Shown in pieces: positions 11,093-64,000 of a stretch of 64,000 nucleotides of DNA (positions are counted from its first letter, which is position 1; each line of letters opens with the position of its first letter). Origin of the DNA: a virus; the IMG/VR virus record IMGVR_UViG_3300013005_003552, positions 62,001 to 126,000 of that record, one strand, 5' to 3'. The translations under genes were made by a program, and so were the position numbers. The notes beneath the pieces were generated by a model. It was not told the DNA's origin, ran no database searches, and saw only the letters and a program-made list of their open reading frames with translations.

Positions 11093-14000
11093 ATGGCAAA
11101 ACTACGCTGGATAACACCTGAAGGCAATTTAGGTACCTACGCAGAAAACACAGAAGTAAGTCTGCAACTGGATGTAGAAAATCCAGTTGCACCTGCCCCT
11201 TCTGCAGGCTTTGACCCCAGGGACAGTATCACAGGAAATGGTATTGAAAATGCTGTGCAAACCAGTATCCTAACAGACAAAACCACATGGCGTATTCAAA
11301 CAAATAATCTCACTGGACTGGTCACAGTTGGGGCATTTCCAAATGACAAAAATCTCAACAGAATAGCTGCACAGTCAATCGACTTACTTACCCCTTACCG
11401 AGGCGGCCTAAATCGAGTGGCATTGGTACAAACTCCGGTCAGCACTGGTGTGATTGGTATTAGCGCAGTTGGCATTGTGCTGTTTGCGCCTGCATCTGAA
11501 ACAACAATCACATCATTTGATTCAAATTGGACTGTGAATGCAGTAGCAGCTGGAGTACTAGGAGAAGATGCCAGTGGAGGTCAGCCAGCAGCAAATGGTA
11601 CCTATAACTATCGTACCAGTCAATTTATAAATGCAGATGCTTGGCAAAACTTGCTTGCATGGAAATCAGGATATCGACACACCGACGGTCATAGCAAAAT
11701 ACTAGGATGGGCCATTGATGGTTATCCTATTTACGGTCCGTATGGATATGATAACCCAAGCACCATTGGTGGTGTGGTAAGAATGCGTTCAGGCTATACT
11801 CTTGTTGAAAAATCAGGGCGCCCGTTGCCCGCAAGTGTAAGTGTATTACCAGGCCGGTATCCCGGTACTCAAATTCCAGTAAGCACCACACAAGGATTGT
11901 ATCCTGGTATGGAACTGCGCGGCCCCTGGCCAGCAAAAACCTATAAAATTGTGCGGGTGCTTTCAAATGCAATACAAGTGAACGCAGAAATAAATTATGA
12001 GTTCAGAACTGATACCAGGGTGCAAGGTATCTGGCCATTGGGTATCTTTGTACAAGATTATGAATATACCGCTCCTAGCGGTACAACATTAGATCAAAGC
12101 AATGGAAGATTTTGTGTAACTCCAGAATTTCCCAATGGCACCTATGCCTATTTCATGTCACAAGATTTGGATGATCAGCCAACATTTCCGTACATAGTTG
12201 GAGCCAGATTCTACGGCAGTCTCAGTAGTGACGAAGTTTCCGGTGTGGCAAACATTGAACCTCAAGCAAGCAATTTAACCTATAGTTTGCTCAGTGGACA
12301 ACTTCCTCCAGGACTACAGGTAGTACCAAGCGGTAGAATTTATGGTTTTCCTCAGGTTGTAACCTCCGGCGATCCTGTGGCTAGAGAATTCCGTTTTACT
12401 ATAAGAGTCAAGAATACCGTAAATCAAATTGCCGACAGAACATTTAGCATATTTGTAAATCAGATTGTGCTTCCTACGATTTTGCCAACAGGAGTGCGCG
12501 GCGAAGGAGTTGGTCAAACACGAGGTAACATTAATTTAAGTTTCACCAACAGAGGCAGTGGGTATTTTGCTGCAAATGTAGCTGTAAGTATAAGTGCGCC
12601 CGACCTCCTAGACAGTGAATCGGCTTTGCCGGGCAAAATATTTTTATTTGCCAATGGTGCAATCAAAAGCATTGGGTTGACCAAGGCCGGCACCGGATAT
12701 ACCTCTATTCCTACAATCACATTTAGTGGTGCCAATACAACCACAGCCAGTGCCACCATCGACAATCTTACCAGCTTTGGTATCGAAGATCTAGGGTACT
12801 TCTTTGACAGTGACCCAGTGGTACTTCAAATCAACGCTCTAGAAACCAGCCCAACTGGCAAATTAGAATGGAGTGTGAGTCAAGGCAGATTACCTCCAGG
12901 ACTTGCACTCAGTCAATCAGGGTTGATCAGTGGGTTTGCACTAGCTCCGTCGGCAGCCGGAGAAGCAGGCACTTCAGCATATGATGTTGGCGGTTACGAT
13001 CAATATGTATGGGATTTTGAAGGCGCTGCCGACAGTCGTAGATACCAATTTACCATTCGAATCTATGATGGAATAAATTATTCTTATCAAAGATATTCCA
13101 TTGGAATTTATGCTAGATCATTTTTCTTGGTTGACAATGAATTAATTACTGCTGATAGCACATTATATTCTGTTGATCGAGATGGGTACTTGTATCCAAG
13201 TATTATAACAACCTCGGTTGAGTTGCCGCCTGTACGACAATTGCAAAGTTATGCCTATAGATTTCAGGCCTATTATGCAAATCCAAATGGCCAAGTAAAG
13301 TGGTCAGTTAATGCATCTGGGCCTGCTAGGTTTGATCAAGGTGCCGCACCATCCCCTGACGATCAGGATAATGTGTATACTATTGTTCCATTTGACAACA
13401 AAAGTTTTGATCAATCTGATCTAAGCCTGCCGGGTGGTATTTTTCTTGATCTTAATACTGGCTGGTTACTAGGTACACTAGGTACCAGTACATCATACGA
13501 ATCCACTTATGAATTTATAGTGACAGCTTATGTTGATGTTCCTATTAGTGAATCTGTTACCAGTCGACGCAGTAGTCAGCCTGTTAAATTTACCCTAAAA
13601 GTGCTGAGTGCAGCCCAAGACCTTGTAACTTGGAACACACCAACTAATTTAGATTCCATTGACAACGGTGCTATAAGCACTTTACAAATTGAAGCTACCA
13701 GCAGAAGTAATACTAGTTTGACTTATAGAGTCAAGAGCGGACAATACCTACGAATTCCACAAGGTCTACGACTGTTACCTAATGGACTTATCAGCGGTAG
13801 AACATCATTTGATTTTTTTAGCATAGACAGGAACACTAGTCAAATACAGTTTGATACAGGTACAAATACCTATGATAGTAAATTTACATTCACAGTCATT
13901 GCAGAAGATGTTACAGGACAAATTTACAGTGAAAAAGAATTTTCACTAGTGGTGAAAAATATAAATCAACGACCTTTTGAAAATTTATATCTCAAGGCTT

Positions 14001-17000
14001 TGTTACCAGCTGGCCTTAGACAGGTGTTTAGATCTATTGTAACTGACGCAAATCTAAGCAGCAATGATTTGATATATCGTCCAAATGATCCATATTTTGG
14101 AGTACATCTTGATCTGACTATGCTGGTTCAGGCAGGGCTACGAGCAGAAACAGCAGCACATTATGTGGATGCAATGAGTGATCATCATATCAATAAAAAA
14201 ATAAACTTTGGCACTATTCGCAAGGCTGTGGCTAGAAACATAGATGGATCTATCAAATACGAAGTATTGTATGTAGATGTACTGGATTATAACTCAGCCA
14301 ATCGTCCAGGAGAAATAATCAGTGTGCGCAGAAACACAGGTATAGATTATGGAACCTTGATTTCTCCTGGTCTGGACATTGATGATTATCACAGTGTGGA
14401 CGATAGAATAACACGAACTGACGATTTTGGACTTATTACCAGCGACGATCTCACAGGCGAAAACACAGTATATACCAATAGCTTTGCCAACATGGCAAAA
14501 GACATTGAGCGTATTGGGTACGAATTTCAAGGAGCATTGCCAGACTGGATGTTGAGTGTCCAGCCAGAAACCAATCAGCCACTGGGCCTGACTAGAGGGT
14601 TGGTTCTGGCTTATGCTAATCCCGGCGAAGGTGATAAATTGCTGTATCGTTATCAAGCGGCTTTGGAGCAAAGCGGATTCAGTGTCGGCGATATCATGAA
14701 CTCGTTCAAATTTACTGCCGACAGATATCAATGGGATAGAACTCTGAGCGAAAACTACAACGCAGATTCAAACTCTTTTGTGCGTAGTCAGACCACAACT
14801 TTTAATAGGATTCCCAGTGTTGGTATAGTAGATAAAGGAGCATGGCTGATTGAAACCAGTGGCACAGGCAACCAACTTACCAGTATAGCATACAAAGTTG
14901 GCGCAGGCTATCTTGCCATTGGTGCCAACAGTGCCATACTTCAAAGTCGTAGTGGAGAAAAATGGGCTGCTGACAATGCAAGAATAAACTTTACATATAC
15001 TTTGGGAATATTGAACAGTCTCACTGCTGGCAGCACAAGCGTGATAAGATTTCCGTCTACCTCGGTAGTAAAGATCGGTGACGAAATTGCACAGTCAAGT
15101 ATTTTTGTATCCAACGCAAGAAGTTTTGTTACAGCAATTGAAAACAGTATTCGGGTGAGTAGTAATATAGCCAATACCATTGTGTCAGGCACTGCGTTAG
15201 AATTTGTGTCATGGCAAGATGGTACTAAATTTTACGCTAATGTTACTCGTACAGCCGCCGCCGGCCATAGCGAAGTGTATATTGACACAGCAACAAATAT
15301 TCAAACAGGGTATGCTGTGTATACCAAAGGCATTGACTTGGCCAATGCAGCAGTAATTACAGCCAATGTTGGCAACACTCTGTTTCTTAGCAATGTCACT
15401 ACCAATGTTATACCCACAGGCACTAGTATTACCTTTGACGACCTACGAGGAAATATAGAGGTATTGGTCACAGCAAATACTACACCGGCTTTTGTCAACA
15501 ACATAACTTTTACCAGTGTTGGCAATGTATCTGCTAACTACTATCCAAGATTAACTGCTATCAATGCTGGTGCTACAGTTCTAACCAAATACATTTATGC
15601 CAACATCAGTGTGCCACCAAGTGCAAATATTCAAGCTGGGTCAGACCTAACGCTGGTGCATCGAATCACAACCACGGCTATGGCAGGCAACTCTGTGATT
15701 AATGTTAGTGACACAACCTTGTTGCCAATTGGTAGTCAAATTTTCAATGTTACAGAAATTGCAAACAGCGATAATACTGCGGCCTGGGCCTCAGTAACAC
15801 CTTTTGGGACCAGCATGTACATCACAGTTCGCACAGCTGGCATTAATGGTAGCATCTTTAGAGGAATGAATGTGGTTGGCCCTGGGATTCCAATTACTGC
15901 TAGAATAGCAGAAATATCTGCCAATGCCACTTATAGTAATTTGACTGTGGTGTTTGCTAATTCAACAGTAGCAGCGCAAAGCAATGTTTCAATCAACTTC
16001 AGTACACCAGAATCAGTGTTGGAAAATACTTCTATCATTGCAAAAACAGATACTTCCATTACACTGAGCAACCCATTGACTGCAAACATAAATGTTGGAT
16101 ACGACAATGTAATAACATTTGGTCTTACTGGGGTGGTATTGAATAAAGTTATTAGTGTGGCAGATCGTTGGTTAGCAGTAGGCGATCGAGGATTAATTAT
16201 TCAAAAATCTGTTGCAGATCGTGCATGGAGTCAGCAGTTTGGTTTGTTGTACGGCGATTTGAAGTCAGTCGGAGTGCGTAGTTACACCAGCGGCGTAAAC
16301 ACATTGTATACCTATGTTGCAGTTGGAAATGAGGGTACTGTGATCCGCAGCACCAATGGCGAAATTTGGAGCTTGCCAATTATTACTCTGGCCAATAGAA
16401 CACTAACTGCTGTGTATCACAATGTTGATACATGGATTGCAGTGGGGGAGGGTGGGCAAATTATTACCAGTGTCGACGATGGGCTGACTTGGACCTTAGA
16501 TAATTCTACCACTAGCCTAAACTTGTATGATGTTTATTATGCAGGCCAGTGGGTGATAGTAGGGCAAAAGGGCAGTGTATGGTTGAAAAATCAGGAAGAT
16601 ACAGTTTGGCAACGTTACACAGCCGGTGTTACAGACACCTTGAGATCTGTGGCTTTTGTAAACAATCAATATGTTGCAGTAGGCGATAGAGGTTCTATTG
16701 TGTACAGCACCGATGGCACCAGCTGGCGCCAGTCCGATCGTTTTGTGAACAATCAATTGAATGCAGTAAGTAGAGACACGGTAATACCAGTGGCAGTTGG
16801 CACAGCAGGTGTTGTACTGCGCGAGTCTCCAAACTTTACAGTGACCTGGGCCATACGCAATGTGCGATTTGATCAAATTAATCTCAACACAGTTCAATCT
16901 GTGACACAGCGTGGATACAGCTTACAAACTGGAGACACCTTGATTTTTGCACAACAAGAAGGGTTTGGCGGTGTAAATGATGGTTGGAACTTGTTTAACG

Positions 17001-51590: not shown

Positions 51591-54248
51591 ATGAGTTATG
51601 TAGACGCTCTGTTTGACAGAGACAAAGACCGTATTCATGTTGTTGAGCGCAATGCCAGCGGCAGAGAGTACAGAGAATTTCCTGCAGAATATATTTTTTA
51701 CTACGACGATCCCCGTGGTAAATTTCGAACCATATACGATACTCCAGTAAGCAGATTTGCTACTCGTAACAGCAAAGAATTTCATAAAGAAATTAGAATC
51801 AACTCTGGCAAACGCATATGGGAAAGCGATATTAATCCCATTTTCCGATGTTTAGAACACAACTATTTGGGTGCCAAGTCACCCAAATTACAAACTGCGT
51901 TTTTTGACATTGAGGTAGACTTTGATCCTGTACGAGGGTTCTCCAGACCAGAGGACCCCTTTAATGCGGTGACTGCTATCAGCATTTATCTAGACTGGTT
52001 AAACAAACTGGTAACCTTGGTTGTTCCGCCCAAGAACATGAGCTGGGAGACCGCACAAGAAATTGCAACCAAATACGATAACTGTTTCTTGTTTGAACAA
52101 GAGGCAGAGTTATTAAACACTTTTCTTGACATCATCGAGGACGCTGATGTACTAAGTGGATGGAACTCCGAGGGTTTTGATATTCCGTATCTGGTCATGC
52201 GTACCACTCGTGTGCTGAGCAAAGATGATTGCCGGCGATTTTGCTTGTGGGGTCAACTGCCAAAAGAAAGACACTTTGAACGCTTTGGGGCTGAAAATTT
52301 AACTTTTGATTTAATTGGCCGTGTGCATCTTGACTATATGCAACTGTACCGCAAGTACACATATGAAGAACGCCATAGTTACAGTTTGGATGCAATTGGC
52401 GAGTATGAACTAGATGAGCGTAAGGTTGCATATGAAGGTACCTTGGATCAGCTGTACAACAAAGACTTTGAAAATTTCATCGACTACAATAGACAAGATG
52501 CCATGCTGGTGGCTAAACTAGATAAAAAATTGCGTTTCCTAGATCTAGCCAATGAACTGGCACATGACAACACTGTGCTGCTGCAAACCACCATGGGTGC
52601 AGTAGCAGTCACCGAGCAGGCTATTATCAACGAAGCACATCAACTGGGATTAATTGTGCCTAATAGGAGAAGAGATGATCAAGGAGATACGCAAGCAGCA
52701 GGTGCCTATGTTGCTTTCCCCAAAAGGGGCATGCACGACTGGGTTGGCGCCATCGACATCAACAGTCTCTACCCGTCAGCGATCCGTGCTCTTAACATGG
52801 GACCGGAAACAATTGTTGCTCAACTTAGACCGATAATGACAGATCGGCTCATTGCCGAACGCATAGCGACAGGAACTACCTTTACAGATGCATGGGAAGG
52901 TTTGTTTGGTACACTAGAGTACACGGCTGTGATGGAAAATCAACCAGGCACAGAAATTACCATTGATTGGGAGGATGGTAATACTACCTTGCACTCCGCA
53001 GCAGAAGTCTGGCGGTTGATCTTTGACTCAAATCAGCCGTGGACACTGAGCGCCAATGGTACTATCTTCACTTACGAAAAGAAGGGCATTATTCCTGGAT
53101 TGCTAGAACGCTGGTATGCAGAACGGAAAGAAATGCAGGCCAAAAAGAAAGAAGCAGACACCGACGAAGACAAAGCCTTTTGGGACAAACGACAGTTGGT
53201 TAAAAAGATTAACTTGAACAGTCTATACGGAGCTATCCTCAACCCAGGTTGTCGTTTCTTCGACAAGAGAATTGGTCAGAGCACTACTCTGACAGGAAGA
53301 ATTATTGCTAGGCACATGGATGCATATATCAATGAGTGCATCATGGGCACATACGACCATGTGGGTGATGCCATTATCTATGGAGACACTGATAGCTGTT
53401 ATTTCACAGCCTGGCCTGCTATTAAAGACGAAGTTGCCGCAGGACACATGGAATGGAGCAAGGAAACTTGTGTTCAGTTGTACGACACTATTGCAGAACA
53501 GGTTAATGCCAGCTTCCCAGGATTTATGGAACGGGCATGTCACTGTCCACGCAGCATGGGCAGTTTAATCAAAGGCGGACGAGAACTTGTAGCAGAAAAA
53601 GGTCTTTATCTTAAGAAAAAGCGTTATGCTGTGCTAATTTTTGACATGGAGGGCAACAGGTTAGACACTCATGGCAAACCAGGCAAGGTCAAAGCCACTG
53701 GTCTAGATCTCAAACGCAGCGATACCCCCAAAATAGTTCAAGATTTTCTTAGCAGTCTGCTGTTGGATGTGCTGACAGGTTGTAACAAAGAACATGTGTA
53801 TGACAAAGTGCGGGAATTCAAATACTCCTTTCAAGATCGTCCTGCCTGGGAAAAAGGTACCCCCAAGCGTGTTAACAATTTAACAAAATACACAAGAGAC
53901 GAAGAAAGGTTAGGCAAGGCTAACATGCCAGGACATGTTCGAGCTGCCATGAACTGGAATAATCTGCGACGCATGCATAGCGACAATTACAGTATGTCAA
54001 TCGTGGATGGTATGAAAACCATTGTGTGCAAGCTCAAAGACAATCCTTTAGGATTTACCAGTGTTGGTTATCCAACTGATGAATTACATATCCCAGCATG
54101 GTTCAAAGAACTTCCATTTGATGATGCATTAATGGAAACTACCATTGTGGATCAAAAAGTAGAAAACTTACTGGGTGTGTTGAACTGGAAGATTCCTGAA
54201 AACACAGAAATCAGCACCACATTTGAAGCATTGTTTACATTCGAATAA
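51591..54248 (+). CDS. 43: Family B DNA polymerase (gp43-like)
   Basis: 885 residues (T4 gp43 898). The exonuclease motif is F105-D106-I107-E108; the polymerase motifs are D389-I-N-S-L-Y-P-S (motif A), KKINLNSLYGA (motif B) and YGD599-T-D601-S (motif C). A terminal ...TTFEALFTFE stretch could be the clamp-binding end, as gp43 ends in a clamp-interaction tail. This is the replicative polymerase with 3'-5' proofreading. A hairpin in the leader suggests gp43-type autoregulation. Confidence 0.97.
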   Translation: MSYVDALFDRDKDRIHVVERNASGREYREFPAEYIFYYDDPRGKFRTIYDTPVSRFATRNSKEFHKEIRINSGKRIWESDINPIFRCLEHNYLGAKSPKLQTAFFDIEVDFDPVRGFSRPEDPFNAVTAISIYLDWLNKLVTLVVPPKNMSWETAQEIATKYDNCFLFEQEAELLNTFLDIIEDADVLSGWNSEGFDIPYLVMRTTRVLSKDDCRRFCLWGQLPKERHFERFGAENLTFDLIGRVHLDYMQLYRKYTYEERHSYSLDAIGEYELDERKVAYEGTLDQLYNKDFENFIDYNRQDAMLVAKLDKKLRFLDLANELAHDNTVLLQTTMGAVAVTEQAIINEAHQLGLIVPNRRRDDQGDTQAAGAYVAFPKRGMHDWVGAIDINSLYPSAIRALNMGPETIVAQLRPIMTDRLIAERIATGTTFTDAWEGLFGTLEYTAVMENQPGTEITIDWEDGNTTLHSAAEVWRLIFDSNQPWTLSANGTIFTYEKKGIIPGLLERWYAERKEMQAKKKEADTDEDKAFWDKRQLVKKINLNSLYGAILNPGCRFFDKRIGQSTTLTGRIIARHMDAYINECIMGTYDHVGDAIIYGDTDSCYFTAWPAIKDEVAAGHMEWSKETCVQLYDTIAEQVNASFPGFMERACHCPRSMGSLIKGGRELVAEKGLYLKKKRYAVLIFDMEGNRLDTHGKPGKVKATGLDLKRSDTPKIVQDFLSSLLLDVLTGCNKEHVYDKVREFKYSFQDRPAWEKGTPKRVNNLTKYTRDEERLGKANMPGHVRAAMNWNNLRRMHSDNYSMSIVDGMKTIVCKLKDNPLGFTSVGYPTDELHIPAWFKELPFDDALMETTIVDQKVENLLGVLNWKIPENTEISTTFEALFTFE

Positions 54249-55271: not shown

Positions 55272-56000
55272 ATGAAAGACTACTTACACGACATCGTGCA
55301 ACACACGCACAGCCTTGGTATTATTGACCTAGTGAAGATTACTGGCAATGACCAAGAAACCTGTATTGACAGTATCGCCGAAGATCGCAGTGTGATCGTA
55401 CAAGCCAAATTCAAGAACCCAGTTCCTGAATTTGTTGGAGTATTTGGCATGCCCAATCTTGGCAAACTAAACACTATCCTTAACATTCCTGAATACAAAG
55501 AAGATGCAAAACTGACCATACTAAGCCAAGATCGTAACGGCAATCAGGTACCAGTTGGTATCCACTTTGAAAACAAAAATGGCGACTTCAAAAACGAGTA
55601 TCGTTTTATGGCCAGCGAAATCATTAGCGACAAATTAAAAAGCGTGAAGATGAAACAGGTCAAATGGAATGTGGAATTCAATCCCACTGTGTCTAATATT
55701 CAAAGACTCAAGTTCCAGGCCAGTGCCAACAGTGAAGAGCCCACATTCATTGCTAAAACCGACAATGGAAAACTAAAGTTTTTCTTTGGGGATCACAGCA
55801 GTCATGCAGGAGATTTTGTTTTTCAAGATGGTGTAGGTACACTGAGCAAGCCTTGGAACTGGCCAGTGAATGCAGTGATTGGCATCCTGGGCTTGGCGGG
55901 TGACAAGAGTATGAAGATCAGTGATGAAGGTGTTATGCAGATCACTGTTGATTCAGGTATTGCAGAATACAACTATCTCTTACCAGCACAACAAAAATGA
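55272..56000 (+). CDS. 45: Sliding clamp (gp45-like)
   Basis: 242 residues (T4 gp45 228). The pattern VGVFGMPNLGKLNTILNIPEY, FKNEYRFMASEII and the late strand SMKISDEGVMQITVDSGIAEYNYLLP fits the two-domain DNA-clamp fold. It would tether the polymerase and, in T4, also activate late transcription. Identity to gp45 is low, so the call rests on fold pattern and the presence of gp43 and gp44. It has its own sigma70-like promoter. Ends with the typical Gln/Lys tail. It overlaps the next gene by 4 nt (ATGA). Confidence 0.75.
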   Translation: MKDYLHDIVQHTHSLGIIDLVKITGNDQETCIDSIAEDRSVIVQAKFKNPVPEFVGVFGMPNLGKLNTILNIPEYKEDAKLTILSQDRNGNQVPVGIHFENKNGDFKNEYRFMASEIISDKLKSVKMKQVKWNVEFNPTVSNIQRLKFQASANSEEPTFIAKTDNGKLKFFFGDHSSHAGDFVFQDGVGTLSKPWNWPVNAVIGILGLAGDKSMKISDEGVMQITVDSGIAEYNYLLPAQQK

Positions 56001-56353
56001 TAACCAGTCTTACAGGCACCGCTGGAGTGACAATATACGGAGGATTAAGTCCTCCGTATATTAACATGACACAGCCCAGCGCAGGTATGGTGCGCTACAA
56101 TGGTTCCAGTCAGCTCATGGAGGTGTACGATGGTACTGTTTGGTTACAGATGGGAAGTCATCCTACCATACAACTGGATGCCCGTGTGCAAGAAATATTG
56201 TACTGGGCAGAAAAGAAAATGCGTGAGGATCAAGAACTAGAAAAGCGCATGGAGCAGCATCCGGGTCTTAGAGATGCCTATGAAAAATTCAAGGTAATGG
56301 ATGTTCTCACACAAGAGAATGATAATAAAAAAGGAATCTATACCCGTGCTTGA
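55997..56353 (+). CDS. Small protein with beta-turn repeat style; contains a perfect hairpin
   Basis: 118 residues. The first half (MVRYNGSSQLMEVYDGTVWLQM) is of a style common in phage fibre-associated small proteins; the second half is helical (ARVQEILYWAEKKMREDQELEKRM). A 13-bp perfect inverted repeat (56032-56062) lies inside its first ~70 bases, encoding the TIYGGLSPPYIN part. Function unknown. Confidence 0.55.
   Translation: MITSLTGTAGVTIYGGLSPPYINMTQPSAGMVRYNGSSQLMEVYDGTVWLQMGSHPTIQLDARVQEILYWAEKKMREDQELEKRMEQHPGLRDAYEKFKVMDVLTQENDNKKGIYTRA
56032..56062. repeat. 13-bp perfect inverted repeat inside a coding sequence
   Basis: AATATACGGAGGA (56032-56044) is fully complementary to TCCTCCGTATATT (56050-56062), with loop TTAAG. 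It is the longest perfect stem I found in the window. Confidence 0.85.
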
Positions 56354-57938
56354 ACAAGACAATCTAACTGCCAAGCAAAGCGACTATGCTGTGTTCTTGC
56401 CGGCTATTTCAGGATTCTATGCAACCTTTATAGGAAAACAGCGTGTTAACAATGACTATGTTGATCCTGCTCGTATGCCTGCGGGCATGCAGGACATGGA
56501 ACAGATGAACTGGTTGAACAGCCAAAAAAGTTTGTTTCCTTATCGGTGGAGTCTTTATTCAGGCGGTCACGCTAATCTCAATCTTGACAAGGATGATGCC
56601 AGCGAAGACATGGTTCGCAAGCGTGAGCCAGGTACATTCATGCTTGGTGACTCTGGTGGATTCCAGATTGCCAAAGGCCTATGGGAAGGTGACTGGAAGG
56701 CCAATTCGGGTTGTGCCAAAGCACAAAAGAAGCGAGACGCAATTCTCAAATGGCTCGACGGTATCGCTGACTATGGCATGATCCTAGATATTCCAACCTG
56801 GGTCATTCACGACAAGAAGGCCAGTGCAGCCTGTCAGATTACCACGCTGGAAGAAGCAGTAGACGCTACCAAGTTCAATAATGATTATTTCATGCAGCAC
56901 AGAAAAGGCAAACGCAATGGTGGTGCCAAGTTCTTGAATGTGCTACAAGGTGACAATCATGCCAGTGCCGAAGAATGGTACCAGATCATGAAACACTACT
57001 GTGATCCTGTTCAGTATCCCGACACGCATTTTGACGGGTGGGCCATGGGCGGACAGAACATGTGTGATGTGCATCTTGTGCTCAGACGCTTGGTGGCTTT
57101 GCGACATGACAATTTACTACAAGAAGGTGTGCATGACTGGATGCATTTCTTGGGTACCAGTAAACTTGAATGGGCACTGTTACTCACTGACATACAAAGA
57201 GCAATTAGAAAATATGTTAACCCTGCTTTTACCATTAGTTTTGATTGTGCAAGCCCGTTTCTTGCCACTGCCAACGGGCAGATGTATCATCAGATAGATT
57301 TGCCGCATAATGACAAATGGTGTTATCGCATGGGGCCCAGCGCAGACGATAAAAAGTATGCTCTGGACACCAGACCGTTCAAGGATGTGGTTCTAGCAGA
57401 CAAGGTGTTCAATCACTTTGACGAAAGTCCTATCAGTCAACATCTTCAGATCAAGGATGTGTGCATATACAAACCCGGCGATTTGAACAAAATTGGCAAG
57501 GAAGGCAAGACCTCATGGGACAGTTTCAGCTATGCACTCATGATGGGTCATAATGTTTGGATGCACATTGAAGCTGTGCAGAGAGCCAATCGTGAATATG
57601 ATTCAGGCACTTGGCCCAACATGCTGTGGAATCAAGGCACCAAAGGTCGTACTGGCGATCATGCAAAATTTAGAGACATTGTTGATGCTATATTTGCTAC
57701 CAGTGACAAACAAGAAAGTTTAGACATTATCGAGCACTACAGTAGATATTGGATGGATATCATTGGCACTCGCGGTTTCAAAGGCGACAAAACCATGAAT
57801 GCTCATAGTCAATTTAATTCACTGTTTGAATTTGTAGAACCAGAGGCTGAGGAGACCGAACGCGATGAGAAAATGGCAGAAGATGCAGCAGAAGATCGAC
57901 TTGAACAACTTGCAAGAATCGAACGAGGAGGAGACTGA
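56346..57938 (+). CDS. dpdA: tRNA-guanine transglycosylase-like (DpdA-like) enzyme
   Basis: 530 residues from the GTG 56346 (AAGGA nine bases upstream; 8-nt overlap). An ATG at 56301 would add 15 residues and overlap 53 nt. TGT-fold motifs in order: FMLGD102-S-G-G-F-Q107 (catalytic base Asp), FLNVLQGD (196-203), WAMGGQ (232-237), HFLGTS (267-272) and F-D300-C-A-S-P (the FDC-x-P nucleophile site). The Cys-rich zinc site of bacterial TGT (CxCxxC) is not seen. Phage members (DpdA) put 7-deazaguanines into phage DNA, blocking restriction; an RNA substrate cannot be excluded. It is longer than bacterial TGT (~375), with an acidic C-terminus (EPEAEETERDEKMAEDAAED). Confidence 0.75.
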   Translation: MLEQDNLTAKQSDYAVFLPAISGFYATFIGKQRVNNDYVDPARMPAGMQDMEQMNWLNSQKSLFPYRWSLYSGGHANLNLDKDDASEDMVRKREPGTFMLGDSGGFQIAKGLWEGDWKANSGCAKAQKKRDAILKWLDGIADYGMILDIPTWVIHDKKASAACQITTLEEAVDATKFNNDYFMQHRKGKRNGGAKFLNVLQGDNHASAEEWYQIMKHYCDPVQYPDTHFDGWAMGGQNMCDVHLVLRRLVALRHDNLLQEGVHDWMHFLGTSKLEWALLLTDIQRAIRKYVNPAFTISFDCASPFLATANGQMYHQIDLPHNDKWCYRMGPSADDKKYALDTRPFKDVVLADKVFNHFDESPISQHLQIKDVCIYKPGDLNKIGKEGKTSWDSFSYALMMGHNVWMHIEAVQRANREYDSGTWPNMLWNQGTKGRTGDHAKFRDIVDAIFATSDKQESLDIIEHYSRYWMDIIGTRGFKGDKTMNAHSQFNSLFEFVEPEAEETERDEKMAEDAAEDRLEQLARIERGGD

Positions 57939-57939
57939 T

Positions 57940-58113
57940 ATGGAAAGCACCAGCAATCGAGTCCGTCATTTGGAAGAAATGCATAGAGTTTTGGACTTAA
58001 AAATAACAGAAATGCAACAGCATCCACATGTGGACGAACAAAAGGTTGCAGAATATAAGAAACAGAAGTTACAATACAAGGACGAAATTTCTAGACTTAG
58101 GTGTCAAGAATAG
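57940..58113 (+). CDS. 57-aa DUF465-like coiled-coil protein
   Basis: 57 residues, start ATG 57940 preceded by GAGGAGGAG. The sequence (RHLEEMHRVLDLKITEMQQH ... YKKQKLQYKDEISRLR) has the DUF465/YdcH layout (hydrophobic heptads with a K-K-x-K-L-x-x-K-D-E-I end). DUF465 is of unknown function. Two bases after the previous stop. Confidence 0.6.
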   Translation: MESTSNRVRHLEEMHRVLDLKITEMQQHPHVDEQKVAEYKKQKLQYKDEISRLRCQE

Positions 58114-58147
58114 AAACAACAACACAAACAATTGTCCGAGGACTACA

Positions 58148-58471
58148 ATGATCACTAAAGGTTTTTACAAGTGGCTGGCCCAAAAAATTTCTTCTGCACA
58201 AGAGGACAACCAAGACGAGCTGCGGCATAATCTATCAAAGTTTGGACAAGGCATTCCGGCAGGGCATACCAGAGTGTATGATGAGGTGGATGCCACTTTG
58301 GATTTGCACTTCCGCATGAGCAAAGCCGAAAACGGTTATGTAATGTCAGTTAGACACACTGATCGTAAAACTGAAAGATCAAATAATACACTGTATTTGA
58401 TAGCAGATCATGAAGATCTTGGTCAAAGTATTTCTCATATAATCACTGTTGAAAGTTTGAAAATCAAATGA
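58148..58471 (+). CDS. Unknown 107-aa protein
   Basis: 107 residues from the ATG at 58148 with GAGGA upstream; a longer frame from 58028 would overlap the previous gene. Soluble, basic and beta-rich. No domain recognised. Overlaps the next gene by 4 nt. Confidence 0.55.
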   Translation: MITKGFYKWLAQKISSAQEDNQDELRHNLSKFGQGIPAGHTRVYDEVDATLDLHFRMSKAENGYVMSVRHTDRKTERSNNTLYLIADHEDLGQSISHIITVESLKIK

Positions 58472-58983
58472 ATCGTCAAGGACATGAAACTGTGAAATTC
58501 TTTGTTGGCCAAGAAGTTGAGCACTCGCCTGCTTACGGCATGCGCACACTGTTTGTGATTGGTTTGCAAAACCCAACTGATATAATTGGATGGGCTCAGC
58601 AGTGTGAATGTCAGCACATCTATTTTGGTGCCAATCAAACTTTTCCCAATCCTGGCATCAATGACAGTGACACATGGCGACCTTGGGAAAACATGATCAA
58701 GGCTGCACTGGACTCTGGTGCATGGTGTACGCTGGATCTTGATGTGAGTGCAGTCGAAGCCTTGCACGAAAGTGGCTTGTGCGAATATGCTAGATTCATT
58801 CCCATGATCAGTGTTAAACTGCCCTACATTAGTTTGCTCAATTACAATACCACAATTAAACTAGATGACCGAGACTTTGAATCAACCAACCCTGGCGTGT
58901 GGTGCCATAGTCTACATGATTTGAAAAATCGTGCAGTGTTCACTGACTGGTCTAAATATTCTCAAGATGAGGTGATAACATGA
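58468..58983 (+). CDS. Unknown 171-aa protein, conserved-looking
   Basis: 171 residues, soluble alpha/beta. Notable segments are HSPAYGMRTLFVIGLQNPTDIIGWAQ, CQHIYFGANQTF and YARFIPMISVKLPYISLLNYNT. It resembles conserved proteins in T4-like marine phages but no function is known. It lies between the TGT-like and QueD-like genes and so may belong to the same modification set. 4-nt overlaps with both neighbours. Confidence 0.55.
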   Translation: MNRQGHETVKFFVGQEVEHSPAYGMRTLFVIGLQNPTDIIGWAQQCECQHIYFGANQTFPNPGINDSDTWRPWENMIKAALDSGAWCTLDLDVSAVEALHESGLCEYARFIPMISVKLPYISLLNYNTTIKLDDRDFESTNPGVWCHSLHDLKNRAVFTDWSKYSQDEVIT

Positions 58984-59183
58984 AAGAGTTTTTAATAAGA
59001 GACGAACCTGCATTTAGATTAAAAGGGCGAATGAGCCAGTGTCTGAGCCCAGAGAATCTTTGGTGCGTGGAATTCACTGGGCAAAGTCTAAATGACAAAG
59101 GTGAAGTGGTTAATAATAGTACCTATCAGTTTTTCCTTGAGGACGCACATATACAAAACATGGTAAAAGGATTACTGTCATGA
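58980..59183 (+). CDS. 67-aa small protein, unknown
   Basis: 67 residues, ATGA overlap. Sequence FRLKGRMSQCLSPENLWCVEFTGQSLNDKG. No family; one member of the small-gene cluster. Confidence 0.5.
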   Translation: MKEFLIRDEPAFRLKGRMSQCLSPENLWCVEFTGQSLNDKGEVVNNSTYQFFLEDAHIQNMVKGLLS

Positions 59184-59332
59184 CCTGCGAAACCTGTGGC
59201 AAAGACTACTCCCCAGCCTGTGACTTTCAGCAAGGTCGCTGTCCGTTGCATCCACCCATGTGGAACTTGACACCATATCATTTTCGCTATCTCACACTTG
59301 TCAACACTATCAAAGGTTGGTTTCGCTCATGA
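59180..59332 (+). CDS. 50-aa Cys-rich small protein
   Basis: ATGA overlap at 59180; 50 codons ending TGA (59330-59332). C3-x2-C6-G, C14, C21-P-L-H: four cysteines and a histidine suggest a zinc-binding knuckle, followed by a hydrophobic aromatic tail. Function unknown. Confidence 0.55.
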   Translation: MTCETCGKDYSPACDFQQGRCPLHPPMWNLTPYHFRYLTLVNTIKGWFRS

Positions 59333-59769
59333 ATACACAAATGGACAGATCACAAACAGACATAAACAGTGAAGTTGCAGATCGCATGATATGGGTGCGT
59401 TTTGAAAAAGAGGGTATTCATAAATATCCAGCAGCACTGGAGGATCCTAAACTTGCGGATGTATCTTTTCTTGGCTTTCCTCATCGCCATATTTTTCACT
59501 TCCGGGTGTCAATCAGTGTGTTCCATAATGACAGGGACATCGAATTCATCCAGTTCAAACGATGGCTGGAGAGTCTGTATAGCGATTCCACTCTAGAACT
59601 CAATTATAAATCCTGCGAGATGATTGCAGACGACTTATATATCCAAATTAACTTGCGTTACCCCGGCAGGCATGTTATTATCTCAGTTAGCGAAGACGAC
59701 GAAAACGGTTGCGAAATTGTTTATCGAGATCCCCGCACCCCAGAAAAAACTTTTTACCATCCAGTATAA
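59329..59769 (+). CDS. QueD-like (6-carboxytetrahydropterin synthase-like) protein
   Basis: 146 residues from the ATG at 59329 (ATGA overlap). The order of features matches the T-fold of QueD/PTPS: IHKYPAAL (H31), P-H52-R-H54-I-F (the H-G-H zinc site), then DIEFIQFKRWL (the DF-x-x-L-K helix), SCEMIADDL (the T-S-E-N-L-A helix) and ISVSEDDENGCEIVY (the E-T-x4-A-x-Y end). The catalytic cysteine expected just before the H-x-H site is absent, so activity is uncertain. It probably converts a dihydroneopterin triphosphate-type substrate in the 7-deazaguanine pathway, in line with FolE downstream and the TGT-like gene upstream. Confidence 0.5.
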   Translation: MNTQMDRSQTDINSEVADRMIWVRFEKEGIHKYPAALEDPKLADVSFLGFPHRHIFHFRVSISVFHNDRDIEFIQFKRWLESLYSDSTLELNYKSCEMIADDLYIQINLRYPGRHVIISVSEDDENGCEIVYRDPRTPEKTFYHPV

Positions 59770-59783
59770 TAGGAGAAATCAAG

Positions 59784-60092
59784 ATGGCGCACCCAAAGTG
59801 GCTTACCAAATACTTTGTTATGAAGTCCGAAGTTAATCAAATCTATGATGACTTAGAAAAATATCGTGAGTTCTGTGTTTCACACGGTCGTGTGTTCAAT
59901 GAAGCGGCACTGTACAATGAACGCGACAGAGATTTTTCTGATTTCATGCGTTTCAAAGAACGAGGATATAGCAAGAATCATTGGAACTGGGCCAACAAAG
60001 ATCCTAACGAACAGCGTAAACCCTTCAACAAAGACAACCGAGGCCCTCGTGGTTTTAACAACTATCGCTCAGGATACAATCGCAATGCGTAA
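59784..60092 (+). CDS. Unknown 102-aa basic protein
   Basis: 102 residues from the ATG at 59784 with AGGAGA; the longer frame from 59709 reads back into the QueD-like gene. Aromatic/basic with Asn/Arg-rich C-terminus (NKDNRGPRGFNNYRSGYN), like RNA-binding tails. Overlaps the next gene by 8 nt. Confidence 0.55.
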   Translation: MAHPKWLTKYFVMKSEVNQIYDDLEKYREFCVSHGRVFNEAALYNERDRDFSDFMRFKERGYSKNHWNWANKDPNEQRKPFNKDNRGPRGFNNYRSGYNRNA

Positions 60093-61275
60093 GTTATACT
60101 ACATGGGTCTTGAAAGTTACAAAGCTCGGTACACACTACAGCTAACAGAATGGAATCGTCGTGTGTTCGAACGACGCGGACTTGATGTTAGTTATGTACC
60201 AGGACTTACTCTGGACAATGGAGAAAAGATTGTGGTTGGTCAGGTGCTGGATGCACATGGTCGCACATACTTTGGCATGAGCCAGCTGATGAATCTAGTT
60301 AGACTAATGCAGCAAGGAGAAGTAACCAGTGAAGATGTTATCTACTTTGAAGACATGTTTCAGCCCGGTATTGAGAGCTTACCTTATATTCTCAATCAAG
60401 TGCCTGCTAATCTGCGTCCTCGCATTTTTGTCCGTTGTCTTGCTCAAGCCATTGATCCTGATGACTTCGTACATGTATGGGGCATGTCTAAGTGGATGGG
60501 CTTGTATGAAAAAATGGTATGCGAACTTGTCCGGGACTCAGGAGGCGCAGTACTAGCCACCAATGAAGAAATGGTCATGCACATGAAGATTGCAGGATGG
60601 GATTGTCCTATCTACAACATTTCAGGCCTGGCCTTTGGCAAGGATGAAGTGCGTGAGCGTGTACCTGGCGAACTCAAACCATTCCTTGAACGCAGTATGC
60701 GTGTGGGCTTTGCAGCTCGCTGGGATCAAGAGAAACAGCCCAACTTTTACATGGACTTGATTGAACTCTACCATGAGCGCAATCCCGGCAACACAGTAGA
60801 GTTTGCTGTGTTCTCTGGTGCGCCATTGCGTACCAACAATGACAGCTACATGGCTCGTACACGACAAATGCAAGCCGAAGGCAAACTGACAATCTATGAA
60901 GATCTAGAAAAGAACGACTACTATGCTCTTCTTGCTGACACTCGGGTGTTGTTCAATTGTGCTTTACAAGACTGGGTTTCTAACACAGTGAGCGAAGCAG
61001 ATACTCTTGGTTGCAATGTACTTTATCCTGCTTACCGTAGTTTCCCCGAGTCCTTTGGCAATGATCACACTAGATTGTATGTGCCTTGGTCATTGAAAGA
61101 CGCTTGTAAGAAACTGGAGAAACTTTTGTACCTGGAAAGTTCTCGTATGGGCAAGATCAGTGACTGGACCAATGGCACTGTAGATCGTATTGTCGACATC
61201 ATCGAAGGCCAAGGCGAGCAATGGTTGCGCATGAGTACAGACTATCGTAAACACACTCACGAAAGTAAATTCTAA
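60085..61275 (+). CDS. GT-B-like glycosyltransferase candidate
   Basis: 396 residues from the ATG at 60085, MRKLYYMGLESYKARYTLQL; a much longer frame upstream is spurious. The first half has a Rossmann-like part with HVWGMSKWMG and GAVLATNEEM. The second half has RVGFAARWDQEKQPNFYMDLIEL and LADTRVLFNCALQDWVSNTVSEADTLGCNVLYP, like the GT-B sugar-nucleotide site (E-x7-E variant SEADTLG). It could glycosylate DNA, phage or host surface. The donor may come from GalE (62667). Confidence 0.55.
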   Translation: MRKLYYMGLESYKARYTLQLTEWNRRVFERRGLDVSYVPGLTLDNGEKIVVGQVLDAHGRTYFGMSQLMNLVRLMQQGEVTSEDVIYFEDMFQPGIESLPYILNQVPANLRPRIFVRCLAQAIDPDDFVHVWGMSKWMGLYEKMVCELVRDSGGAVLATNEEMVMHMKIAGWDCPIYNISGLAFGKDEVRERVPGELKPFLERSMRVGFAARWDQEKQPNFYMDLIELYHERNPGNTVEFAVFSGAPLRTNNDSYMARTRQMQAEGKLTIYEDLEKNDYYALLADTRVLFNCALQDWVSNTVSEADTLGCNVLYPAYRSFPESFGNDHTRLYVPWSLKDACKKLEKLLYLESSRMGKISDWTNGTVDRIVDIIEGQGEQWLRMSTDYRKHTHESKF

Positions 61276-61277
61276 TT

Positions 61278-61382
61278 ATGATTTATGTCATTGGAATCCT
61301 TTTGGTGGTCGCCATGTACTTTTTCATCTGCATGGTAGACAGCGAAACCAAACATCACGACCAGGATTCCAATGGACTTTGA
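61278..61382 (+). CDS. 34-aa single-helix membrane peptide
   Basis: ATG 61278 to TGA 61380-61382, 34 codons: IYVIGILLVVAMYFFICMV then an acidic/His-rich tail. Two bases after the previous stop, overlapping the next gene. Small membrane peptide, function unknown. Confidence 0.45.
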   Translation: MIYVIGILLVVAMYFFICMVDSETKHHDQDSNGL

Positions 61383-61611
61383 GCTGTGGCATCAATTGTT
61401 AACTGAAACTGTGTATTGGCAAGACATCAACCCTCACAGGTCTCTTGATATTTTGCAACGCACTGCTGTGGCCTGGGCACATGATCAGAAGTATTTTATG
61501 CAATCTGGTCCTGACCGGGTGGATTTGACAAAACTCTACGAACAATATAAACTACTAGAAACTCTCAAAGGAACTTATCATGGCGAAGAAATCGGATCAG
61601 AACACTGCTGA
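61372..61611 (+). CDS. Unknown 79-aa protein
   Basis: 79 residues, overlapping the small membrane peptide by 11 nt and the next gene by 32 nt. Helical and soluble (WHQLLTETVYWQDINPHRSL, LTKLYEQYKLLETLKG). No known family. Confidence 0.5.
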   Translation: MDFELWHQLLTETVYWQDINPHRSLDILQRTAVAWAHDQKYFMQSGPDRVDLTKLYEQYKLLETLKGTYHGEEIGSEHC

Positions 61612-62656
61612 ACCAGTGAACCCAGAACATGAACATCTAATCGAGGTACTAAAGTTCACTCCGCGTACTTACAAAATCCAGCTATGGGGTTACGGCGGTG
61701 AGTACGCCATGGGCACTGTGGACCGAAACATATATGATTACTTTCGTAGGCGTAGATTGAGCGTGGCTGATTTTGCCTGGGACAGTGACTATGCTGAAAC
61801 TCATAACATACCAGAATCCATGTGGCCATTTGTTCCAGGATCTTGGTATGAATGCGAAAACATGGGACATGTGTACGGAGTAGACCGAGCATCTGGCACC
61901 ATGCAGATTTTGGATGAAAATGGCGAAGTGGTGTATGAACGCAGCTTGGAAGAACTTGATGGTTGTGATGTAGAGCTTAACACTCGCGACGAAATTTGGA
62001 TTGATAGTCAACCCAAAGATACTGTTGTATTTTTTGGTTACACCGCTGACAAAGGAACCTTCTTTGAAGCTGACATAGAGCTTGGTGCTCCTTTTGATCC
62101 AGAAAAACTATGCTTGGTTATTGATGATTTTGATTCAAATGAGATCATCACAGGTGCAGAGTACGATGGCGAAGAACTGTGCAACGACGGCGGAGATACC
62201 AATGGCAAAGGATCTGATTTTGCATTCTACATTGCAGGCAGTAACAAAGGCCAGGGCTATGAGAGATATCGCGACATGGACGATATCAAATACAATCTTA
62301 CCAATTGGTTTCCTAGCAAAATCAAGCCTGTAGTTGCAGGTATATATGAAGTGGAAGCCAAACAAGGACATATCTATCATGCTGTGTGGTCTGGCGAGTT
62401 CTGGCACAATGAATGGAGTGATACAAAAGAACCATTGAAAATCAAGCAATGGCGAGGCATCGCCTATGATCCAGACGAGCAATTTCTTCGTGATGAGTTA
62501 GATCAAATATACTTGTCGCTTGTTGTTGAAGACCAAGATGCTGAAGTACTAAATTGCGAACATTGCGGCTGGAGCGGCAGTGCCAACAACACCAATGACT
62601 GGGATGGCCAAATGTGTTGCCCTGACTGTGGCGAACCTGTACAATCTATCAATTGA
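61580..62656 (+). CDS. Unknown 358-aa protein with C-terminal zinc ribbon
   Basis: 358 residues. The body is acidic and soluble with no recognised enzyme motif. The last ~30 residues form a zinc-ribbon-like pair: C-E-H-C-G-W-S-G and, 17 residues on, C-C-P-D-C-G-E-P. It may bind nucleic acid or a protein partner. Confidence 0.6.
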   Translation: MAKKSDQNTAEPVNPEHEHLIEVLKFTPRTYKIQLWGYGGEYAMGTVDRNIYDYFRRRRLSVADFAWDSDYAETHNIPESMWPFVPGSWYECENMGHVYGVDRASGTMQILDENGEVVYERSLEELDGCDVELNTRDEIWIDSQPKDTVVFFGYTADKGTFFEADIELGAPFDPEKLCLVIDDFDSNEIITGAEYDGEELCNDGGDTNGKGSDFAFYIAGSNKGQGYERYRDMDDIKYNLTNWFPSKIKPVVAGIYEVEAKQGHIYHAVWSGEFWHNEWSDTKEPLKIKQWRGIAYDPDEQFLRDELDQIYLSLVVEDQDAEVLNCEHCGWSGSANNTNDWDGQMCCPDCGEPVQSIN

Positions 62657-62666
62657 GAAAAATAAA

Positions 62667-63647
62667 ATGATCAAAGTATTTGTTACAGGAGCAACTGGCT
62701 ATATTGGTAGCCATGTATGCAAGAAATTAAAAGAAGATGGCTATGAAGTAATTGGTCTTGACCGTGTGCGCAGAGAACACACCCTGCAATACATGGATCA
62801 ATTTATAGAAGCAGACTATCATAGTCAAACCTGCATTGATGCACTGGTGCAGCATGCACCCCAAGCAGTTATTCATCTAGCAGGTACTAGTCTAGTAGGA
62901 CCCAGTGTGAGTGATCCTGGCGAATACTATACAAACAATGTGGCCAAGACTGCTGCATTGCTAAATGCCATACGGTTTCTAGAACACATGCCAGTGGTAG
63001 TTTTTTCTAGCAGTGCCGCGGTGTATGGTGCACCAGAAAAAGACCTGATACACGAAAACGATCCTTATAGCCCACTGAGTCCATATGGACAAAGCAAGGC
63101 CATGATTGAAATCATGCTAACGGATTTTTTCAAGGCCTACGGCATGTGCAGTGCCAGTCTGCGTTACTTCAATGCCTGTGGTGCTGACGAGTCTGGAACT
63201 CTTGGTCAAGCACCTGGTGCAACACACATTGTGGCTAGATTATTAGAAAGTGCTAGAGATAAAACAAAATTTACTCTTTACGGTAATGATTATAATACCG
63301 CAGATGGTACTTGTGTGAGAGATTATGTGCATGTGAGTGATCTAGCCTCGGCTCATAGCCTAGCAGTGTCGTACCTAATGAGCGATATGGATCCTTGCTT
63401 TGCTCTAAATCTTGGCACAGGCCAAGGATACAGCAATCAAGAAGTCATTGACACAGTTATCCAAACTGTTGGGTCTGTTGACATTTCTGTTGGCCCACGA
63501 CGAGCCGGAGATCCTGATCAACTGGTAGCAGGAAATGTGTTAGCCAAAGCAAAACTAGGTTGGCATCCAGAAAACTCTAATTTGTCCAATATTGTAACTT
63601 CTGCATGGAAGTGGTATAATAACCCATCAAATCAAGTTGACAACTGA
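62667..63647 (+). CDS. galE: UDP-glucose 4-epimerase-like (GalE/SDR)
   Basis: 326 residues from the ATG at 62667. NAD-binding motif VTGATGYIGSH (6-16), VIHLAGTSLVGPSV, SSSAAVYGAPE and the catalytic Y-G-Q-S-K (YxxxK), then RYFNACGAD, the GalE signature. Interconverts UDP-glucose and UDP-galactose; it could feed the glycosyltransferases at 42568 and 60085. Slightly shorter than E. coli GalE (338). Confidence 0.9.
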   Translation: MIKVFVTGATGYIGSHVCKKLKEDGYEVIGLDRVRREHTLQYMDQFIEADYHSQTCIDALVQHAPQAVIHLAGTSLVGPSVSDPGEYYTNNVAKTAALLNAIRFLEHMPVVVFSSSAAVYGAPEKDLIHENDPYSPLSPYGQSKAMIEIMLTDFFKAYGMCSASLRYFNACGADESGTLGQAPGATHIVARLLESARDKTKFTLYGNDYNTADGTCVRDYVHVSDLASAHSLAVSYLMSDMDPCFALNLGTGQGYSNQEVIDTVIQTVGSVDISVGPRRAGDPDQLVAGNVLAKAKLGWHPENSNLSNIVTSAWKWYNNPSNQVDN

Positions 63648-63665
63648 TCTAAATAAGTTTACAAT
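63637..63665 (+). promoter_or_regulatory. Sigma70-like promoter of folE
   Basis: TTGACA (63637-63642), 17-bp spacer, TACAAT (63660-63665), very similar to the clamp promoter; the spacer shares GATCTAAATA. Start predicted near 63672; the leader to the ATG at 63704 has CGGAGAG. Confidence 0.75.
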
Positions 63666-63703
63666 ACACAACTAGCCATCCTCGGCTATAACTCGGAGAG
63701 CAA

Positions 63704-64000
63704 ATGGTTTACAACAAAGCATACATTAGCAATGACGAAGAAACCGCACTAGACGCCATGGCAGGCGATGGCGGTTATGCCCTGGGGCAAGCACACAAAC
63801 AGATTGCAGCAAAAATGCGCCGTGAAGGCAAGCGATTCTGGGCAGGCGATAACATCAGCGACTATGTTGACGATAAGGCCAAAGAACAACTGATTGACGA
63901 AGCGCGAGCTGCATTTGAACTTGTGCTAGACACACTGCTAATTGATCGACACAATGATCCTAACAGCCACGGCACAGCACAACGCTTGGCCAAGATGTAT
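63704..64000 (+). CDS. folE: GTP cyclohydrolase I (FolE), 3' end outside window
   Basis: 99 residues visible to the window end. The sequence ARAAFELVLDTLLIDRHNDPNSHGTAQRLAKMY is the N-terminal helix and the D-P-N-x-x-G-T-x-x-R-x-A-K-M-Y signature of FolE. The catalytic zinc-binding Cys and His lie downstream, outside the window. FolE turns GTP into dihydroneopterin triphosphate, the first step of both folate and 7-deazaguanine (preQ0) synthesis; the QueD-like and TGT-like genes in this window favour the latter. Sigma70-like promoter upstream. Confidence 0.75.
   Translation, partial: MVYNKAYISNDEETALDAMAGDGGYALGQAHKQIAAKMRREGKRFWAGDNISDYVDDKAKEQLIDEARAAFELVLDTLLIDRHNDPNSHGTAQRLAKMY

Follow-up and report, generated by a model that had tools for sequence, protein, structure and literature searches.

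A probable QueC-less 7-deazaguanine DNA-modification system with a remote DpdA relative and a linked glycosyltransferase gene in a phage genome

Introduction

The DNA of Vibrio phage nt-1 contains 7-deazaguanines (Hutinet et al. 2019, PMC6884629). The DpdA2 systems, exemplified by nt-1, combine genes for FolE, a QueD-like protein and QueE with a TGT-fold enzyme that lies beyond the PSI-BLAST reach of DpdA1 (PMC6884629). Acidovorax phage ACP17, Cellulophaga phiST, Synechococcus BUCT-ZZ01 and Xanthomonas X1 carry FolE, QueD and QueE together with a protein of the phrog_17812 type, and QueC was neither annotated nor found in them; ACP17, X1 and BUCT-ZZ01 also have a glycosyltransferase and DpdA2-type enzymes. 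Some of these four phages are reportedly dDG/dCDG carriers with ‘DpdL’ (Cui et al. 2023). In the Pseudomonas phages Paride, PA5oct and MIJ3 (Arenbergviridae), a run of seven consecutive genes includes those for a DpdA-like protein, a glycosyltransferase, a T-fold protein, an epimerase-like protein, a phosphoribosyltransferase and QueE. Text searches of the papers on these three phages found no DNA modification of the 7-deazaguanine kind.

Here, we analysed 64,000 nucleotides (the window; positions 62,001 to 126,000 of IMG/VR record IMGVR_UViG_3300013005_003552) and the flanking sequence of the record. Like nt-1, the window phage has FolE, QueD-like and QueE genes, from which set it departs by the absence of QueC and the addition of a glycosyltransferase and GalE. 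With ACP17, phiST, BUCT-ZZ01 and X1 it shares the QueC-less combination containing a phrog_17812-type protein, and with all of these except phiST the glycosyltransferase, but its transglycosylase is not of the DpdA2 type found in three of them; it belongs to the same DpdA branch as the proteins of Paride, PA5oct and MIJ3 (34%), in which the QueD genes lie elsewhere and both the DpdA-like and the T-fold gene are listed as hypothetical. We consider it likely that these genes constitute a QueC-less 7-deazaguanine DNA-modification system.

Results

The gene at 56346..57938 (+ strand) encodes 530 amino acids from a GTG start behind AAGGAA, and the ATG codons at 56301 and 56319 are less likely starts. 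The first-pass annotation had read the product as a long TGT-like protein of a possibly divergent branch without the usual zinc Cys cluster, and each of these points was confirmed. The protein contains DSGGFQ (56649), LDIPT (56784), LQG (56943), AMGGQ (57042), HFLG (57144) and ISFDC (57234), the last of which continues as FDCASP, that is, FDC-x-x-P rather than the FDC-x-P given before. The catalytic Asp pair (DSGG-Q, IS(F/Y)D) and the QG and G-G substrate motifs are thus all present, while a motif check of the sequence, which has seven Cys, found no CxCxxC...H zinc site of the tRNA TGT type. D97 and D295 (A1 numbering) are invariant among 37 sequences with identity down to 30%, and the motifs are kept in relatives as distant as 30–37% identity. 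Searches of Pfam, including its TGT family, PHROG and NCBIfam gave no match, a PDB sequence search with the profile of the protein found nothing, and similarity to characterised DpdA proteins was below BLAST reach, with none to the DpdA2 of nt-1, ACP17 or X1. By contrast, hhalign aligned the protein with DpdA2 over the TGT motifs (E 7e-7, prob 92%). An AlphaFold (AF2) model (pLDDT 79.6, pTM 0.82) matched only TGT (6ygl, 6fso) and archaeosine TGT (1iq8) in the PDB at E < 1e-3 (E 5e-6 and 3e-5, respectively, prob 1.00), with moderate TM-scores against TGT of 0.34–0.50. Among the top viral fold matches in BFVD was R9TGF0 of nt-1 (E 2e-9), whose 464 amino acids equal the length of the nt-1 DpdA2. 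The window protein is longer than DpdA2 (about 530 versus 416–464 amino acids), and neither it nor Paride_0115 matches phrog_10773, the DpdA2 family, or any other PHROG. On its motifs, profile alignment and predicted fold, we regard the 530-aa protein as a TGT-superfamily enzyme of a previously unannotated branch, remotely related to DpdA.

At least 598 stretches in IMG/VR hold relatives of this protein, the best 80 of which are 74–100% identical. These many relatives, the conserved motifs and the predicted TGT fold indicate that the open reading frame is more than chance. The IMG/VR scan gave no matches with the Paride protein and two loci with that of Phosso, and in a genome collection a single gammaproteobacterial MAG matched, in part. 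The isolates sharing the branch were only the Paride/PA5oct group, Phosso and Vibrio 2.275.O.

A second protein of the locus, encoded at 59329..59769 (+ strand), belongs to the phrog_17812 family (E 1e-35); its start may be the GTG at 59260 or an ATG at 59329, 59341 or 59386. It had been described as a QueD-like T-fold protein with H-x-H and without the expected Cys. When its family profile was compared with QueD, the alignment was confined to the last third (prob 65%), after which structure prediction was chosen; a PDB sequence search with the profile gave only weak thioredoxin and unrelated matches. In the AF2 model (pLDDT 90.2), the fold is that of QueD, and the top 20 PDB matches are all QueD/PTPS structures, including E. 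coli QueD. The structure predictions proposed for both proteins yielded the TGT fold and the QueD T-fold. The protein shares with E. coli QueD (PTPS family) the fold, a C-terminal Glu region and three zinc-type His (HRH and EGIH-type) that are invariant in 44/44 homologues; GxH, HRH, R..EF, SxE and ED.E are conserved in the family. It differs from E. coli QueD in having no Pfam PTPS match and, according to the homologue alignment, neither the catalytic Cys nor the Asp-His dyad; a Cys of another type (SCEM) occurs in 36/44 homologues. The description of fold, H-x-H motif and missing Cys therefore stands. The role of pathway QueD falls to a second protein, encoded beyond the window end (record 129679-130224), that has the catalytic Cys and Asp-His dyad.

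The remaining pathway genes follow downstream. folE (63704..64000 and on to window position 64471, + strand; record 125704-126471) is complete, with its end beyond the window, and encodes GTP cyclohydrolase I (Pfam PF01227, GTP_cyclohydroI, E 1e-39 on the full gene; PHROG 2197). The promoter that had been assigned to it corresponds only to a sigma-70-like consensus match at 63637..63665 (+ strand; TTGACA-17-TACAAT, 11/12 positions). Searching the flanking sequence, as had been suggested, located queE about 5 kb downstream of folE, beyond the window end (record 131545-132438), together with the true QueD; the queE product has the Cys pattern and GGEP in common with nt-1 QueE. The same search gave no queC: PF06508 had no match in the whole record, which is linear, 144 kb long and possibly incomplete. 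A further 24 records with the T-fold protein were checked, and a full QueC was found in none of them (24/24); the genomes of ACP17, Paride, Phosso, BUCT-ZZ01, X1, RHph_I1_18 and MA9V-3, which are among them, were deposited as complete. Strong QueC matches (E < 1e-50) occurred only in nt-1, 9g and Vibrio 2.275.O, all three without the T-fold protein. Some records gave weak partial QueC-like matches (E 1e-6 to 1e-2), of which a few exceeded the curated cut-off; these matches probably represent other ATP-pyrophosphatases. These sequence comparisons suggest that the T-fold protein is a QueD-fold paralogue, distinct from the pathway QueD, that substitutes for QueC in the gene set. Since QueC is absent and the T-fold protein stands in its place, the product is probably not preQ0, as the first-pass annotation had supposed, and would instead be a carboxy-deazaguanine derivative. 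The overall assignment to a 7-deazaguanine system with DpdA-like, QueD-like T-fold and FolE proteins is upheld by the hhalign, fold and Pfam matches.

In the pathway that we propose, FolE would convert GTP to H2NTP, the second QueD would convert H2NTP to CPH4, and QueE would make 7-carboxy-7-deazaguanine (CDG). The T-fold protein would then act on CDG, most likely by removing the carboxylate to give 7-deazaguanine. Our best guess is that it is a CDG decarboxylase resembling DpdL, an enzyme reportedly named as such by Cui and colleagues in NAR in 2023; this assignment draws on that reported activity and on the observation that, across phages, the T-fold protein appears where QueC is missing. 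The DpdA-like transglycosylase would exchange guanine in replicated phage DNA for 7-deazaguanine, and the modified genome would be shielded from host restriction. The guanine set free by this exchange may be recycled by a phosphoribosyltransferase of the xanthine/guanine type (record 128356).

The absence of QueC could also mean that the phage supplies FolE, QueD and QueE and depends on host QueC for a preQ0- or preQ1-type base, with the T-fold protein as an accessory QueD. Hosts with the Q pathway could provide QueC, and Bipper, which lacks QueC only, is classed among preQ0 phages (PMC6884629). However, the T-fold protein replaces QueC across unrelated phages, and a phage with a true QueD has no need of a second one without the catalytic Cys and Asp-His, which makes this explanation unlikely. 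In the QueD of the cluster, HGY replaces HGH and the first zinc His is usually missing. These losses are complementary to those of the T-fold protein, which has three His and lacks the Cys and Asp-His, as would be expected if the two formed a mixed T-fold complex for CPH4 synthesis and CDG itself were inserted (dCDG). This seems very unlikely, because HGY-type QueD also occurs in Iggy, RHEph04 and Moby, none of them among the T-fold-carrying records and two with QueC adjoining, indicating that the T-fold partner is not needed.

The DpdA-like, T-fold, folE and QueD genes lie in a conserved block. Among the best 80 of the at least 598 relatives, the order DpdA, 171-aa protein, T-fold protein, glycosyltransferase, GalE, FolE, QueD is fixed in 80/80 loci as far as the contigs extend, and a family B DNA polymerase gene, in the window at 51591..54248 (+ strand; phrog_262, E 3e-191) and regarded as context rather than as part of the pathway, lies just upstream of the DpdA-like gene in 78/80. 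The DpdA genes of 9g, Iggy and RHEph04 likewise have polymerase and clamp genes in their neighbourhood. Membership of the TGT superfamily, and the discussion in a tRNA sense of phages that have Q-pathway genes and no DpdA (PMC6884629), would fit an enzyme that raises queuosine-type modification of host tRNA, but the lack of the zinc cluster, of a Pfam TGT match and of QueC in the record, the resemblance to DpdA2 and the position just behind the DNA polymerase gene in those 78 loci leave this scarcely probable.

Three genes of the block, for the glycosyltransferase, GalE and the 171-aa protein, were absent from the first-pass annotation. In those loci, again from the best 80 of at least 598 relatives, that have enough sequence, they are present in 34/34, 31/31 and 57/57, respectively. 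The conserved 171-aa protein (58468..58983, + strand), encoded between the DpdA-like and T-fold genes, has no Pfam family; among 50,697 phage records it is confined to the PA5oct/Paride group and ACP17, every one of which carries the T-fold protein. It was also considered as a QueE fragment, and hhalign showed no relation to QueE. The gene at 60085..61275 (+ strand) encodes a 396-aa homologue of GT4-type (GT-B) glycosyltransferases, whose profile matched WlaC (E 2e-4) and, less strongly, GT4 enzymes. Its R..EK.P and D/E-x7-E motifs are conserved (R211, K216 and E303 invariant, position 295 D/E in 31/31), from which the C-terminal GT-B donor site of GT4 enzymes (R/K, E-x7-E) is predicted to be present. 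It is 61% identical to the BUCT-ZZ01 protein adjoining the T-fold gene of that phage. GalE, UDP-glucose 4-epimerase, is encoded at 62667..63647 (+ strand; NCBIfam TIGR01179, 326.8 bits against a cut-off of 262.3). The glycosyltransferase family was detected in 20 of 50,697 phage records, 16/20 of which also carry the T-fold protein and span five distinct lineages; the other four matches are weak (24%), and those inspected sit in a different sugar cluster. No gene of the thymidylate synthase/hydroxymethylase family, which could be the source of a hydroxymethylated pyrimidine as sugar acceptor, was found.

Discussion

The gene set appears to be a widespread variation on known 7-deazaguanine systems, in which the DpdA branch was previously unannotated and the added sugar-transfer gene was unexpected. 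It extends DpdA to a branch that goes unmatched in Pfam, PHROG and NCBIfam and that occurs in at least several hundred viral contigs; 7-deazaguanine DNA is therefore probably more widespread among environmental phages than has been estimated.

The gene set predicts that the base is not preQ0, and from the glycosyltransferase linked to it a new hypermodification can be predicted as a possibility. The co-occurrence of glycosyltransferase and T-fold protein, together with the lack of a gene for a hydroxymethylated-pyrimidine acceptor, supports the tentative idea that 7-deazaguanine in the phage DNA is glycosylated: the GT4-type enzyme might add a sugar after the base is installed, with GalE supplying UDP-glucose/galactose and the 171-aa protein assisting. 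We know of no sugar-bearing 7-deazaguanine in DNA. Cultured relatives exist for both predictions, including BUCT-ZZ01, which grows on the cyanobacterial laboratory strain Synechococcus elongatus PCC 7942.

A divergent DpdA branch

The gene set is a real and widespread 7-deazaguanine system for which DNA modification is predicted, and it is new in its DpdA branch, in a QueD paralogue that replaces QueC and in its linked sugar genes. The source record is linear, possibly incomplete and 144,265 bp long; the window is its bases 62001-126000 (record coordinate = window coordinate + 62000), and sequence past the window's end was also included in the analysis. The TGT-like ORF (window 56346-57938, + strand) has a GTG start preceded by AAGGAA and encodes 530 aa. 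The protein had no match in Pfam, PHROG or NCBIfam, a search of the whole record with PF01702 (TGT) gave none with all 14 controls positive, and a CxCxxC zinc site was not present. Along the protein lie DSGGFQ, LDIPT, LQG, AMGGQ, HFLG and ISFDC, arranged as the catalytic motifs are in Z. mobilis TGT, and both Asp residues were invariant in 37 relatives. Profile comparison with a DpdA2 alignment (nt-1, ACP17, X1 and BUCT-ZZ01) gave E 7e-7 and a probability of 92%, with these motifs superposed. In the PDB, the AlphaFold2 model (pLDDT 79.6, pTM 0.82) had no matches at E < 1e-3 other than TGT and archaeosine TGT, and its matches among viral models were uncultured phage proteins, two TGT-annotated phage proteins and a DpdA2-length nt-1 protein. 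TM-scores were moderate, as expected because the protein is longer and divergent. Motifs, profile and model together predict a DpdA-type enzyme of the TGT superfamily outside the DpdA2 sequence family.

In Vibrio phage 2.275.O (stretch L089:19905-26931), the same branch lies alongside QueC, FolE, a QueF-like gene and a YhhQ-like transporter for vitamin uptake, and is therefore not confined to QueC-less sets. Vibrio D479 (L153:8686-9543), Aeromonas Ahp1 (L154:8417-9289) and Cellulophaga phiST (L151:12765-13544) each encode, close to the T-fold gene, a short protein that is annotated as hypothetical and carries TGT-like motifs (HFLG/HCLG, DN-G); these proteins are possibly another DpdA branch.

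A QueD-fold paralogue in place of QueC

The first-pass annotation had counted a lack of other preQ0 genes in the genome against its candidate system; both QueE and QueD were found. The genes folE (record 125704-126471; PF01227 E 1e-39), a second QueD (129679-130224; PF01242 E 6e-15, PHROG 'QueD-like' E 2e-38) and QueE (131545-132438; PHROG 'QueE-like' E 6e-53, 33% to nt-1 QueE) all lie inside 7 kb. QueE keeps C31, C35, C70 and GGEP in the arrangement of nt-1 QueE. Of the two genes to be sought in the flanks, queE was thus located and queC was absent from the whole record.

The T-fold protein (window ~59329-59769) belongs to phrog_17812, function unassigned in PHROG. The top 20 PDB hits of its model (pLDDT 90.2) are without exception PTPS proteins, E. 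coli QueD included, so that the models of both proteins agree with the folds initially proposed. Among 44 homologues, the three zinc-type His (GxH, HRH) and two Glu close to the C terminus are invariant and the Cys within SCEM occurs in 36, and neither the catalytic Cys nor the Asp-His of QueD is retained. Since fold and His are kept and the catalytic residues are gone, the protein is a QueD-fold paralogue and not the pathway QueD; the QueD-like fold and the absent Cys noted earlier held, and the pathway role did not.

Strong QueC (E < 1e-50) was detected in three of 27 phage or IMG/VR records (nt-1, 9g and Vibrio 2.275.O), all without the T-fold protein, whereas the remaining 24, several deposited as complete genomes, all had the T-fold protein and none a full QueC; this exclusion is clean in a small set picked via the genes themselves rather than sampled at random. 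Weak partial QueC matches in several of the 24 look like other ATP-pyrophosphatases. The T-fold protein takes QueC's place across records, and this mutual exclusion places its predicted step after QueE, with 7-carboxy-7-deazaguanine (CDG) as substrate. Cui et al. 2023 (NAR) reportedly gave the name DpdL to a CDG decarboxylase and are said to have detected 2'-deoxy-7-deazaguanine, along with the carboxy form, in phage DNA; DpdL identity for the T-fold protein is a lead. The T-fold protein was not found in the record of Cellulophaga phi38:2, for which PMC11515303 confirms 7-deazaguanine modification and that much only; it is present in phiST, phi13:1 and phi19:2.

In the pathway QueD, HGY replaces HGH and the first zinc His is usually missing, which prompted the idea of a mixed complex with the T-fold protein; this is not supported, because Iggy, RHEph04 and Moby, none among the T-fold records, have the same QueD type, adjoined by QueC in Iggy and RHEph04.

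A phosphoribosyltransferase (record 128356-128925, L002:11356-11925; best match xanthine PRTase) may recycle DpdA-released guanine; this xanthine/guanine type recurs adjoining QueC-less clusters in different phages (also L092:7456-7917 and L087:23946-24380). Between folE and queE (record 127607-131548), cupin-like, cytidylyltransferase-like and HIT-domain proteins and an NAD-dependent epimerase (L002:10607-11077, 11901-12413, 13227-14548) are possible further sugar or small-molecule genes.

A conserved block with linked sugar genes

In the best 80 of at least 598 IMG/VR stretches encoding relatives of the DpdA-like protein, the order DpdA, 58468-protein, T-fold, GT, GalE, FolE, QueD had no exception within contig reach. 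Where sequence sufficed, the 58468-protein was present in 57/57, T-fold in 49/49, GT in 34/34, GalE in 31/31 and FolE in 26/27, with PolB upstream in 78/80; because the loci were selected for resembling the window protein, they come from related viruses, and their conservation is not independent. Independent support for the linkage comes from isolates with DpdA genes of different branches (ACP17, X1, BUCT-ZZ01, Phosso and the Paride/PA5oct group), in which a same-family GT likewise adjoins the T-fold gene or lies close to it. No such system came up when the texts of the Paride, MIJ3 and PA5oct papers were searched. The 58468-protein (window 58468-58983; 171 aa, no assigned fold) occurred among isolates only in the Paride/PA5oct group and ACP17, all T-fold phages.

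The match of the GT profile (window 60085-61275) to GT4 enzymes (WlaC E 2e-4) falls in their C-terminal half, with R211, K216 and a D/E-x7-E pair conserved. The GT shares 61% identity with its counterpart in a Synechococcus phage; for the T-fold protein, QueD and QueE of that phage, identity to the window's proteins is only 39-44%. Two queries found the family in 20 of 50,697 phage records, 16 with the T-fold protein; the remaining four, from three Xanthomonas PhiXhv phages and Erwinia Ep032, are distant, at 24% identity, and in PhiXhv-12, the one read, the gene lies within another sugar cluster. GalE (window 62667-63647) exceeds its equivalog cut-off, and no thymidylate synthase/hydroxymethylase family gene was found. 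GT and GalE possibly serve capsid, tail or other glycosylation. Given the GT linkage to the T-fold protein, GalE and the lack of a thymidylate synthase/hydroxymethylase gene, a sugar borne by the deazaguanine is a reasonable though speculative guess.

PhiXhv-12 (L155:12735-15969) has consecutive GlmS-like aminotransferase, GlcNAc-malate deacetylase-like and glycosyltransferase genes, a run that resembles a further phage cluster for sugar or base hypermodification. Record 139426-141893 (L003:3926-6393) appears from its sequence to encode a MoxR-type AAA ATPase and, after it, a VWA-domain-like protein. Between PolB and DpdA, a 242-aa protein (window 55272-56000; phrog_12062), found in 79 of the best 80 loci, could by position be a sliding clamp.
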